A stretch of DNA of 64,000 nucleotides from assembly GCF_018614195.1 (NCBI RefSeq), contig NZ_JAGGOT010000070.1, positions 861 to 64,860 on the forward strand. Reading direction: 5' to 3'. This document shows, in pieces, positions 11,230 through 14,153 of the stretch. The position numbers and the translations under genes were made by a program. Under the pieces are notes generated by a model. That model worked only from the letters and a program-made list of their open reading frames with translations. It made no database searches and was not told the origin of the DNA. How positions within the stretch are numbered: position 1 is the stretch's first letter; the number at the start of each line of letters is the position of its first letter. The stretch comes from Streptomyces sp. ISL-43 (GTDB lineage: Bacteria > Actinomycetota > Actinomycetes > Streptomycetales > Streptomycetaceae).

Positions 11230-12915
11230 TCATCCGCCGATCGGAGCGCAGGCGGCGGCGAGGTGGCGGGCGACCTGGGAGGGGTGGGTCAGCTGGGGGT
11301 AGTGCCCGGCTCCGGCGATCTCGGCCACCGGGTGGTCGACGGACTCGGCCAGCGGGTCGGCCGAGCCCACGATGATCCGGACCGGGACGCTCACCCGGTC
11401 CAGCAGCGCCCGCGACTGCCGGCGCTCGGCGGCGTCCGCGCGCGAGGCCGCGACCACGCGGCGCGCCACCCCGCGACGGCGCAGGTCCGCTGCGGCGCTC
11501 TCCACCTCCGCCCCCTCGGGGACACCGAGCGTCCGGGCCAGCCGAGCGGCGGACATGCGGCGCATCATCGGCGCGGCCAGGCCCGAGCGGGCGAGCCGGG
11601 GGGCGGGTGCCTGCAGGAACGCCGGGGAAATGAGGACGAGACTGCTGATGCGGTCCGGATGGTCGACGGCGAAGCGCAGCGCGGGTCCGCAGGCCAGGGA
11701 GTGTGCGACCAGCGCGGGTCGGGTCCGCACCGGGCTCAGCAGGTCGGCCAGCCACGCGTCCACCGGCTGGGTCGTGGCGGCCGAGCGACCCAGGCCCGGC
11801 AGGTCGGGGGCCAGGATCCGGCCGGGGAGGCGGGCGGCGAGGGGTGCCCAGAGGTCGGCGTTCATCGGCAGTCCGTGCAGCAGGACGTGGTCGGGGCTGT
11901 GCCGCTCGCCGCTCACCCAGGTAGGGCTGCCCGCCACGGCGTGGAAGCCGTACGGGCTCAGCAAGGGCGATGCGGCACCGAAGCGAGCGGCCACCAGGTC
12001 GTCGGCCCACCCGCGCAGGGCGTCTGCGGCCGGAGGCATCTCCAAGCCGGCGCGCGCGGCGAAGGCGCGGGCGGAAGCCGTCGGGTAGCGGTCGGCCGAC
12101 AGGAACGCCAGCGTCTCGGGATCGGCGCCGGTCAGCCTGCGCGGCAGGCGCCGCAGCAGGCCGACGGGAACGGTCCGGCGAGGTGCCCGCACGCCCGTGT
12201 GGTCGGCGATCGTACCGATCAGCTCGGGCAGGAGCGGAGTGGTGTCGTCGAGCACCCAGTAGTGCTCACCCGCGGGAGATGCGGGGATCTCCGCGAGAAA
12301 CCGCACGAAGTAGTCGATCGAGGTGATCGGCAGGAAGGTGTCGGGGCCGCCGGGCAGCGCGGGAAGCCGGCCGTTCCACAGGTCCCCGACGAGGGCGGCC
12401 AGGCCGATGTACTGGCCCGGCCCGATCACGGTGCTGGGATTGGCAATGGTCAGCGGGACCTCCAATTCACGAGCCCGGGCGCGCACCGCGAGATCACCCT
12501 CGGACTTCGAAGCCTCGTACGCCCCCAGCCCGGCGTAGTCGGGGTGGCCCTCGGACCCGCTCACCCGGTACCCGCTGATGTGCACCAGCCGCCGCAGCCC
12601 GGGCAGCGCGGCCGCCCATTCGAGCACGTTGATCGCCCCGGTGACGTTGGTCGCCCGTGCCTCCTGGACGCCGAGGCCGAAGGCGAAGCGAGCGGCGGTG
12701 TTGTAGACGTCGCGCACCTCGGGCAGCCCCGACAGCGGTCGCGTGATGTCGGCGGCGACGATTTCCAGCCCGCCGGTGTCAACGCCCTGGGAGGTCAGCC
12801 AGGGGGTGAGGGTGTCGTTGCGTACGGCTGCCGCCACCCGTTGGCCCCGGGTGAGCAGCTCGGCGACGAGGGAACGGCCGATGAAGCCGGTCGCGCCGAA
12901 GACGATCGAGTCCAT
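11230..12915 (-). CDS. Fusion of an extended SDR (NAD-dependent epimerase-like) and an alpha/beta hydrolase
   Basis: 561 residues with two enzymes in one chain. Residues 1 to about 330 form an extended short-chain dehydrogenase: nucleotide-binding GATGFIGRSL at 7-16 and the catalytic YEASK motif. From about 345 to the end is an alpha/beta hydrolase: oxyanion LLHGLPMNADLW, nucleophile elbow VAHSLACG, acid in VGSADPL and histidine in GAGHYPQL. The elbow reads AHSLA instead of the usual GxSxG. AAGGAG precedes the ATG by five bases, and an 18-bp operator shared with the neighbouring TetR gene lies just upstream. A role in modifying or detoxifying a small aromatic or polyketide-like molecule is inference. 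Confidence 0.85.
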   Translation of the reverse strand: MDSIVFGATGFIGRSLVAELLTRGQRVAAAVRNDTLTPWLTSQGVDTGGLEIVAADITRPLSGLPEVRDVYNTAARFAFGLGVQEARATNVTGAINVLEWAAALPGLRRLVHISGYRVSGSEGHPDYAGLGAYEASKSEGDLAVRARARELEVPLTIANPSTVIGPGQYIGLAALVGDLWNGRLPALPGGPDTFLPITSIDYFVRFLAEIPASPAGEHYWVLDDTTPLLPELIGTIADHTGVRAPRRTVPVGLLRRLPRRLTGADPETLAFLSADRYPTASARAFAARAGLEMPPAADALRGWADDLVAARFGAASPLLSPYGFHAVAGSPTWVSGERHSPDHVLLHGLPMNADLWAPLAARLPGRILAPDLPGLGRSAATTQPVDAWLADLLSPVRTRPALVAHSLACGPALRFAVDHPDRISSLVLISPAFLQAPAPRLARSGLAAPMMRRMSAARLARTLGVPEGAEVESAAADLRRRGVARRVVAASRADAAERRQSRALLDRVSVPVRIIVGSADPLAESVDHPVAEIAGAGHYPQLTHPSQVARHLAAACAPIGG

Positions 12916-12928
12916 GAAAACTCCTTAA

Positions 12929-12946
12929 TAGATCGGTCTACATATT
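12929..12946. promoter_or_regulatory. LmrA/YxaF-like operator before the SDR-hydrolase gene
   Basis: Plus-strand TAGATCGGTCTACATATT lies 14 bases upstream of the SDR-hydrolase start. It matches the element before the TetR gene (13556-13573) at 16 of 18 positions, and in the same orientation relative to its gene. Read on the minus strand (AATATGTAGACCGATCTA) it closely resembles the Bacillus LmrA/YxaF box as I remember it. Confidence 0.7.
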
Positions 12947-12954
12947 TTTAGGGC

Positions 12955-12983
12955 CGAAAAGAAGCCCGCCGGTCACGGCGGGC
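12955..12983 (-). terminator. Intrinsic terminator after the TetR gene
   Basis: An 8-bp GC stem (GCCCGCCG at 12964-12971 and CGGCGGGC at 12976-12983) has a 4-nt loop. On the minus strand it is followed by TTCTTTTC. It starts four bases past the TetR stop. It separates TetR transcription from the SDR-hydrolase gene, consistent with each gene having its own operator. Confidence 0.7.
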
Positions 12984-12987
12984 CGTG

Positions 12988-13545
12988 TCAGCCCAGCAGG
13001 GCGCCGATCTGGCGGGAGACGCTGTCCAGCGGCCCCCTGCTGCGGTGCGCCCGGGCCAGCAGGAGCGCCCCCTCCACCAGGGCCAGGATCGTGACCGCGA
13101 GGTCGTCGGCGTCCGGACGGCCCGCCAGTTGCGCGCGCAGGGCCTCCTGCCACGAGGCGTAGACCTCCGAGCACACCTCCTGGAGCGGGTCGCTGGTGGC
13201 GGCCATCTCCAGCGCCACGGTGGCCACCGGGCATCCCTTGCGCCAGCCCGACTCCTCCAACCGGTCACCCAGGTGTCGCAGCACCCCGTCGACGAACTCC
13301 GCCACCGACGGACTGGAGCCGGCCAGGCCCCCCAGGGCATCACCGATCATCCGCCCGGCCCGCTGGACGGACTCGCCGACCAACTGGTCCTTGCCGCCCG
13401 GGAAATGGAAGTAGAGGGAGCCGCGGGGTGCGCCACTGGCCGCGATCACTTGATTGAGCCCGGCGCCGAAGTACCCCCCGCTCTCGATCAACTCCTGCGT
13501 TGCGTCCAGCAGCCGGTCCCGCGTCTCGGCGCCCTTCTGTCCCAT
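12988..13545 (-). CDS. TetR/AcrR-family repressor of the LmrA/YxaF type
   Basis: 185 residues. The N-terminal TetR helix-turn-helix is clear (TRDRLLDATQELIESGGY, GLNQVIAASGAPRGSLYFHF, then PGGKDQL). The C-terminal half carries the segment WRKGCPVATVALEMAATS, which marks the YxaF/LmrA/QacR-like C-terminal domain. In Bacillus these repressors respond to flavonoids and control detoxifying enzymes and pumps. An 18-bp element lies 11 bases before the start here and is repeated upstream of the SDR-hydrolase gene, so self-regulation plus control of that gene is likely. A T-rich intrinsic terminator follows the stop. Confidence 0.88.
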   Translation of the reverse strand: MGQKGAETRDRLLDATQELIESGGYFGAGLNQVIAASGAPRGSLYFHFPGGKDQLVGESVQRAGRMIGDALGGLAGSSPSVAEFVDGVLRHLGDRLEESGWRKGCPVATVALEMAATSDPLQEVCSEVYASWQEALRAQLAGRPDADDLAVTILALVEGALLLARAHRSRGPLDSVSRQIGALLG

Positions 13546-13555
13546 GGAGCCAAAC

Positions 13556-13573
13556 TAGACCGGTCTGCATATT
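13556..13573. promoter_or_regulatory. LmrA/YxaF-like operator before the TetR gene
   Basis: TAGACCGGTCTGCATATT, with the near-palindromic core TAGACCGGTCTG, lies 11 bases upstream of the TetR start. It is the sister copy of the 12929-12946 element and predicts autoregulation. The AATATG part on the minus strand could also serve as part of a -10 region, so bound repressor would block the polymerase. Confidence 0.7.
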
Positions 13574-13640: not shown

Positions 13641-14153
13641 CTATCCGGCGACGGCCGCCGCGAAGGCCTCGTAGGCCCGCTCGTCGAACAGTACGAAGCG
13701 GACCTCCTCCACCTCGGTCCGGGCCGCCCGTACGGTCTCCACCGCGATCCGCGCCCCGTCGTCGATGGGCCAGCCGTAGATGCCGGTGGAGATCGCGGGG
13801 AAGGCGACGCTGCGGGCTCCCAGCTCGTCCGCGACCCGCAGCGACTCCCGGTAGCAGGAGGCCAGCAGCTCCGAGCGGTCCTCGTCCCGCGACCAGACCG
13901 GGCCGACCGTGTGGATCACGTGCCCGGCCGGGAGCCGGCCGGCCGTGGTGGCGACCGCCTTGCCCGTCGCGAGGCCTTTGCCGTAGTGCGAGCGGCGCAG
14001 GTCCTCGCAGGCGGCCAGGATCTCCGGGCCGCCGCGCCGGTGGATGGCTCCGTCGACCCCACCGCCGCCGAGCAGCGAGGAGTTCGCCGCGTTGACCACG
14101 GCGTCGGCCTTCTCGGCGGTGATGTCGCCGAGGACGAGCGTGACGCGCGGCAT
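13641..14153 (-). CDS. Macro-domain O-acetyl-ADP-ribose deacetylase-like protein
   Basis: 170 residues spanning one complete macro domain of the YmdB/MacroD type. Visible motifs are [34 protein letters not shown], given here in parts as the ADP-ribose loop [18 protein letters not shown], the [10 protein letters not shown] strand, and [13 protein letters not shown] in the diphosphate loop. The family removes acetyl or ADP-ribose groups from ADP-ribose derivatives or proteins. The start shares one base with the upstream flavoprotein stop (TGATG), so the pair is probably co-translated. Confidence 0.92.

Follow-up and report, generated by a model that had tools for sequence, protein, structure and literature searches.

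A putative self-repressing TetR switch with LmrA/YxaF-like boxes at an SDR-hydrolase gene of Streptomyces, and the spread of its repressor-operator module

Among the closest described relatives of the system considered here is LmrA/YxaF of Bacillus, whose operator box has the consensus AWTATAtagaNYGgTCTA and where residues Phe87 and Trp131 of YxaF matter for flavonoids. Another is the NemR-NemA-GloA system of Escherichia coli, in which Lys175 of NemR is the partner of Cys106. YxaF (QdoR) is described, in passages of one source, as repressing its own gene through one operator and qdoI through two (PMC8481877). NemR is described as responding to reactive electrophiles, and for its homolog AltR a conserved cysteine, Cys100, is given as essential for thiosulfinate sensing (passages of PMC13178969).

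In the 64,000-nucleotide stretch of Streptomyces sp. ISL-43 DNA analysed here (the window, on contig C97 of a genome of 8,874,481 bases in 127 contigs), a TetR repressor gene and a gene for an SDR/alpha-beta hydrolase fusion are each preceded by an 18-bp box (Table 1). This arrangement very probably constitutes an autoregulated, detoxification-type switch, with tetR and the SDR-hydrolase gene each under a box of its own. We infer that a dimer of the repressor occupies two sites: box 1, in the spacer between the putative -35 and -10 elements of the tetR promoter, which is probably leaderless, and box 2, over the promoter region of the SDR-hydrolase gene and just 5' of the Shine-Dalgarno sequence. 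Neither gene would be expressed before the repressor is released by a small molecule or through oxidation of Cys105; enzyme and repressor would then be made together, and new repressor would close the system once the compound is gone. The inducer would be expected to carry a carbonyl, ester or lactone, or to be thiol-reactive.

Table 1. Features of the tetR and SDR-hydrolase locus, in window coordinates.
Feature	Position	Strand	Details
SDR/alpha-beta hydrolase fusion gene	11230..12915	-	561 aa; GATGFIG, Y133-K137, S406-D520-H538
Shine-Dalgarno-like AAGGAG of the SDR-hydrolase gene	12921..12926	-	by eye; two bases from box 2
Operator box 2 (putative)	12929..12946	-	AATATGTAGACCGATCTA; 13 nt 5' of the SDR-hydrolase ATG
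Intrinsic-terminator-like hairpin between tetR and the SDR-hydrolase gene	12963..12984	-	9 pairs; fold -19.1 kcal/mol
tetR, TetR repressor gene	12988..13545	-	185 aa; LmrA/YxaF-like C-terminal domain; Cys105 aligned to NemR Cys106
Putative -10 of tetR, TAGTTT	13552..13557	-	by eye; 17 nt past the -35, 6 nt before the ATG; shares two bases with the end of box 1
Operator box 1 (putative, autoregulatory)	13556..13573	-	AATATGCAGACCGGTCTA; 10 nt 5' of the tetR ATG; kept at the same place in orthologs
Putative -35 of tetR, TTGAAA	13575..13580	-	by eye; T and G of TTG conserved there

Sixteen of 18 bases are identical between the two boxes, which lie in the same orientation, as had been claimed in a preliminary description of this DNA; on the plus strand they read TAGATCGGTCTACATATT (box 2) and TAGACCGGTCTGCATATT (box 1), and the minus-strand readings given there, AATATGTAGACCGATCTA and AATATGCAGACCGGTCTA, are correct. 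Their place just upstream of the two gene starts (SDR-hydrolase at 12915, TetR at 13545) likewise stands, while the distances of 14 and 11 bases given with it are coordinate differences, the true gaps being 13 and 10. When the window was scanned at up to three mismatches, the two boxes were the sole matches (shuffle mean 0.05, with none of 100 shuffles reaching two). Across the whole genome at the same tolerance they were the only close pair, with one further site of three mismatches on contig C110 as against one match of the reversed control. The two boxes are not there by chance, and the local two-site regulon proposed in the preliminary description is upheld by the genome scan. When the 12-bp palindromic core TAGACCGGTCTA was searched alone, at up to one mismatch, four places were found in this genome as against five control matches per strand, which is not significant, so that specificity requires the full 18-mer; a palindrome-only view of the box was rejected because the core alone did no better than its control. 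Of the two further places of the core in this genome, one falls within a tRNA-Ser gene. The GGTC of box 1 is GATC in box 2, and the two affinities may therefore differ.

By eye, the region upstream of tetR has the layout TTGAAA-N17-TAGTTT-N6-ATG, with box 1 within the spacer. Among the 49 unique forward tetR boxes of relatives, T at -6 (43/49), G at -4 (37/49) and T at 22 (43/49) are conserved, a pattern that -35 and -10 elements would be expected to show, and the spacing from the -10 to the ATG suggests that the tetR mRNA is probably leaderless. A strict sigma-70 promoter scan returned no promoter at the locus, and no recognisable -35 was found for the SDR-hydrolase gene. GGA-rich stretches like AAGGAG follow the SDR box in many relatives. 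Between the two genes stands the terminator-like hairpin (one observed, shuffle mean 0.3), and termination at this point would explain why the enzyme needs an operator of its own.

The repressor matches TetR_C_13_2 (LmrA/YxaF-like, PF21993) at 98 bits against a cut-off of 27 and TetR_N at 33 against 24, and its closest solved relative is YxaF (1sgm), which bears out the YxaF/LmrA-type C-terminal region noted earlier. Its recognition region, GLNQ..SGAP[RK]GSLY, matches that of YxaF (TGLNQ...SGAPKGSLY). For comparison, one scan of named genomes gave 566 candidates, the best 80 of which were kept as named loci; the patterns used in fetching them include Y[FH]HFPxGK and CPVxxVxLE, so that conservation of these residues is partly a matter of selection. 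Streptomyces sp. TBY4 is the closest named relative of the repressor among these best 80 of 566. At the place of NemR Cys106, where YxaF has Ile, the window repressor has Cys105, which recurs in each of the nine genus relatives aligned (L009-L016, L019), found without a Cys-containing pattern; Cys stands at 105 in 80/80 named loci, partly by selection because the fetch patterns contained that residue. The position of NemR Lys175 is Arg165 in the window repressor. YxaF Trp131 is kept in 80/80 named loci, and YxaF Phe87 is Val in the window and Val, Leu, Met, Ala or Ile in the 48 SDR-linked relatives.

The 80 loci come from many actinomycete genera and from Ferrovum, Myxococcus, Mesorhizobium, an Acidimicrobiaceae MAG and a deltaproteobacterial MAG. 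The degenerate box AWTATRTAGAYYGGTCTA, at up to three mismatches, was found within 90 bp 5' of the repressor gene in 72 of them (reversed pattern 0/80, shuffles 1/1600), and outside the actinomycetes it occurs at the Ferrovum, Myxococcus and Mesorhizobium loci. The eight misses comprise three loci with a 4-bp-spaced form (L092, L100 and L112), one with a variant box read by eye (L086), two where the box stands before an MBL gene that precedes tetR (L103 and L114), and two where no box was found (L119 and L120).

Within the genus of the window, 76 of 150 genomes carried some TetR match at E 1e-20, and only six (own included) carried one of at least 54% identity, which makes the cassette sporadic. 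Thirty genus loci were fetched (L008-L037). The box precedes both tetR and the SDR gene in L008-L013 (with three mismatches at the SDR gene of L011); in L016 and L019 an SDR gene is present and the box stands before tetR only; in L015 the box is inverted and the flanks gave no SDR match, and L014 has the 4-bp-spaced form. Among the 21 lower-ranked TetRs of 35-41% identity (L017-L037), a box at up to four mismatches was found only for L037 and for L019, which bears the SDR gene too, the remaining ones having differing upstream sequences, and this near absence means that the box tracks the repressor subfamily. A gene for a Macro-domain protein (13641-14153 in the window), upstream of tetR on the same strand, adjoins the cassette in L008 and L009; it was unmatched in the fetched flanks of L010-L013.

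In 396 genomes across the phylum, the box at up to one mismatch was found only in the window's own genome, which shows rarity only, as the sample was an even draw over the phylum from which other repressor holders are possibly absent. The size of the regulon was estimated with AATATGTAGACCGGTCTA, at up to two mismatches, in 47 genomes, made up of those of 38 of the 48 SDR-linked named loci and nine genus genomes (L062 was left out): 44 of the 47 had one to three matches and two had none, the outlier being the Kitasatospora xanthocidica genome of L123, with 31 matches as against 0 in the control.

The tetR boxes of relatives are forward in 52 cases and inverted in 20, and in the 20 inverted copies the AT-rich end lies on the same side of the core; since this end stays with the core on inversion, it appears to be part of the operator. 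The half-sites TAGACY and RGTCTA, taken as exact matches, are adjacent (0 apart) in 12 of 90 upstream regions and separated by 4 in 8, one overlapping case being scored at 5. Spaced sites all have GAYY or its complement as their central tetranucleotide (10/10, those with one mismatch included). The 4-bp-spaced form TAGACY-N4-RGTCTA is seen in L092, L093, L094, L100, L118, L014, L127 and L133, and it stands beside the unspaced form in L093, L094, L118 and the Priestia qdoI promoter. Position 7 is the most variable of the box (information 0.43 forward, 0.36 inverted), in keeping with a 16-bp view (NemR-like TAKRNN-GAYY-GGTCTA). A 12-bp centre is favoured by positions 9, 10 and 12, whose conservation is similar to that of 13-18; in the forward set, position 8 shows roughly the conservation of 5 and 6. 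The dyad of the box may be either the 12-bp palindrome or the NemR-like 16-bp TAKRNN-GAYY-GGTCTA. On the Embleya plasmids of L130 and L132, two mirror-arranged boxes precede the TetR gene and form a near-perfect long inverted repeat.

The SDR partner is present in 48 of the 80 named relatives, 44 of which have a box upstream of the SDR gene; in the remaining four (L104, L106, L116 and L121) the SDR start overlaps the tetR stop by 4 nt and there is one box each, the overlap being such that a single box suffices. All 45 complete partners have intact SDR motifs (the other 3 of the 48 run off the end of the locus), and all 35 fusions keep the hydrolase triad. Ten of the 45 are shorter, nine being SDR alone by length and one (L067) split near the hydrolase part; this last gene, of Nonomuraea candida (L067:3150-4523), is apparently split by a frame change near the hydrolase start. 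In an AlphaFold model of the fusion (pLDDT 90.8), the top folds for the SDR half are cinnamyl-alcohol dehydrogenase 2 (first), Gox2253 and sugar epimerases, with cinnamoyl-CoA reductase at rank 17, and those for the hydrolase half are fluoroacetate dehalogenases; the top matches of both halves are near 20% identity. Of the 32 named loci that carry no SDR gene (within L085-L126), 28 have an MBL-fold hydrolase match beside tetR, partial in L085 and L111, the Pfam assignment resting on four proteins (HxDxDH or HxHxDH motif in all four), and no such match was found beside tetR in any of the 48 SDR-carrying loci. As judged from these sequences, the repressor-operator module is common to the loci, and the enzyme is swapped.

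A link to the Firmicutes is seen at a plasmid locus of Priestia megaterium (L127), where a relative of YxaF, at 65% identity to the query, is followed by a gene annotated as quercetin 2,3-dioxygenase (qdoI), itself preceded by TATATGTAGATTGGTCTA and TAGACTGACCAGTCTA. TATATGTAGATTGGTCTA is identical to each window box at 14 of 18 bases, and the yxaF-qdoI site is one mismatch from the degenerate box AWTATRTAGAYYGGTCTA. Each window box lies two mismatches from the LmrA/YxaF consensus given above. Five further plasmid-borne relatives were fetched: of two Paenibacillus loci, L128 has a box with two mismatches and L129 boxes with three; the Embleya loci L130 and L132 have pairs of boxes, and the cyanobacterial relative (L131) had no box at up to three mismatches. 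The conservation of repressor and operator between Firmicutes and Actinobacteria put forward in the preliminary description is strengthened by the Priestia locus, in that the repressor and operator type appear to be common to both.

Other readings of the boxes and of their inducer have to be set against the autoregulated switch. The boxes might be conserved promoter elements only and not an operator, given that the last two bases of box 1, TA, belong to a plausible -10 and that the AT-rich end of the inverted copies in L087 and L101 can be read by eye as a -10. Yet the 18-mer occurs in either orientation and at promoters of differing element spacing, it tracks the TetR subfamily and it is absent elsewhere in the genome; the promoter-only reading is highly improbable and was rejected, as was chance, on the scan controls, both orientations and subfamily tracking. 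A flavonoid-like inducer, as hinted at in the preliminary description, would make this a flavonoid-sensing LmrA/YxaF regulon common with the Firmicutes. The partner genes, however, encode SDR or MBL hydrolases and are not qdoI or lmrB; Phe87 is replaced by Val, Ile is found in YxaF at the place of Cys105, and the SDR fold matches to cinnamyl-alcohol dehydrogenase 2 (first) and cinnamoyl-CoA reductase (rank 17), which as phenylpropanoid enzymes would agree with flavonoids, are nearly tied with sugar epimerases. Even with the C-terminal Pfam domain of YxaF/LmrA, Trp131 kept in every named locus and the box at the Priestia yxaF-qdoI locus in its favour, this inducer is unlikely, and that part of the earlier claim was not sustained. 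NemR has the same half-sites and senses electrophiles, so the ligand cannot be predicted from conservation of the operator. The intact motifs and the modelled folds of the fusion suggest a substrate with a carbonyl, ester or lactone group and do not single out flavonoids.

The likeness to NemR also raises a thiol switch, where an electrophile or oxidant modifies Cys105 and the repressor is released; this would sit inside the autoregulated switch preferred here and not beside it. The alignment of Cys105 with NemR Cys106 in the window and nine genus relatives agrees with such a switch, as do the same half-sites upstream of the nemR gene itself and, by analogy, the cysteine of AltR (Cys100) described in passages of the literature. 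Against this, NemR Lys175 is Arg165 here, so that the NemR sulfenamide could not form in the same way, GC at the Cys105 place is also found in 3qbm and may be common in the fold, and the partner enzymes suggest a metabolisable ligand over a pure oxidant. A thiol switch is therefore possible but rather doubtful as the means of release.

The preliminary description had tied the motif to a TetR neighbour, and in the genome of the window no close copy is seen away from a TetR gene; in Kitasatospora such copies do occur. There, outside the window, boxes are multiplied into intergenic arrays that alternate with a hairpin repeat every roughly 100-120 bp. Array loci L164-L171 and L217-L226 belong to genomes G574, G590, G591, G594, G596, G601 and G612. 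The hairpin repeat, GAAGTCGR-N3-8-YCGACTTC, occurs in 38 of 61 Kitasatospora genomes in up to 110 copies, the reversed-pattern control being zero in 60 of the 61. In the same 61 genomes, 23 have at least one box (AATATGCAGACCGGTCTA, up to two mismatches) and 25 have the repressor at E 1e-35, and all 11 genomes with more than three boxes have the repressor. Among the 30 genomes with at least ten hairpins, more than two boxes are found in 10 of 11 with the repressor versus 0 of 19 without it; the exception with the repressor is G580 (two boxes), and the repressor-free G575 has a single box. This association has a Fisher p of 3.7e-7, the related genomes not being independent, and on an rpoB-region tree of 29 of the 30 genomes (G601 was dropped, its match being broken) there are only four independent contrasts, with a mean of 3.5 concordant, 0 discordant and 0.5 of no difference (p 0.125). 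The 14 repressor-bearing genomes with few or no hairpins have 0-4 boxes, so that arrays go with both repressor and hairpins.

At the level of single hairpins, 0 of 56 instances, some counted twice or more owing to overlap between loci, have a box within 150 bp (up to four mismatches) in 24 stretches of seven repressor-free genomes. In 19 stretches of repressor-bearing genomes the figure is 53 of 56 (up to three mismatches), 18 of these stretches having been chosen for their boxes and L216, chosen for hairpins alone, giving 0 of 3. Downstream of the same gene, the repressor-free G625 has hairpins without a box (L211) and G574 and G596 have box arrays (L164 and L217), where L164 and L217 share both flanks and L211 shares one only. 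On a rough gene call, three of eight fetched box regions of G574 are flanked by convergent genes, perhaps also a fourth, and the single box of L170 in this genome lies between divergent genes and could be a promoter site. We suggest, tentatively, that the repressor may have a second, chromosome-wide role in some lineages, the arrays acting as repressor sinks or chromosome-organising sites and not as promoters; on this view the near-24-bp palindromes in the arrays would also make the one-sided 18-bp promoter box one half of a double site whose parts overlap and which serves two dimers.

The repressor-operator pair, known chiefly for sensing flavonoids in Bacillus, forms a widespread module, found in actinomycetes, Firmicutes, proteobacteria and Myxococcus, and because it is fitted to different enzymes its operator identifies the repressor family and not the signal. 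The locus offers a setting in which to look for the inducer of uncharacterised systems with an SDR-hydrolase or MBL-hydrolase, and the arrays of Kitasatospora pose the testable question of why the operator of a local repressor would spread through the chromosome. In literature on the core motif, LmrA/YxaF and the Kitasatospora arrays, no title or abstract opening describes this system, most subscription journals lying outside the coverage. CssR, DitR and AltR were set aside as models, the operator sequences given in passages of their literature being different, and for RcrR no operator sequence was found in the RcrR literature passages. AcuR, the acrylate utilization regulator, is a weak match (NF051457, 44.6 bits), far under the family cut-off of 247.

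NemR-NemA-GloA of E. coli resembles the system of the window in having nemR directly before a reductase gene, in its half-sites TAGACC and GGTCTA (TAGACC-GACT-GGTCTA upstream of nemR in K-12) and in the cysteine at the Cys106 place. While the half-sites are 4 bp apart in NemR, they are 0 apart in the window, the N4 form being found in some relatives only, and Lys175 is not kept. NemR is also distant in sequence, being absent among the 12 matches of a single-sequence search at 1e-5 and reached by a profile at E 1.5e-17. To YxaF (QdoR)/LmrA of B. subtilis the system of the window is alike in its PF21993 domain, a near-identical recognition region and a predicted autoregulation by way of a box that stands before a detoxification gene as well. 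Unlike these, its target is an SDR-hydrolase and not a qdoI-type dioxygenase or an lmrB-type efflux pump, and its repressor has Cys105 for the Ile and Val for the Phe87 of YxaF. The kind of system, a repressor with a detoxification-type enzyme, is already known.
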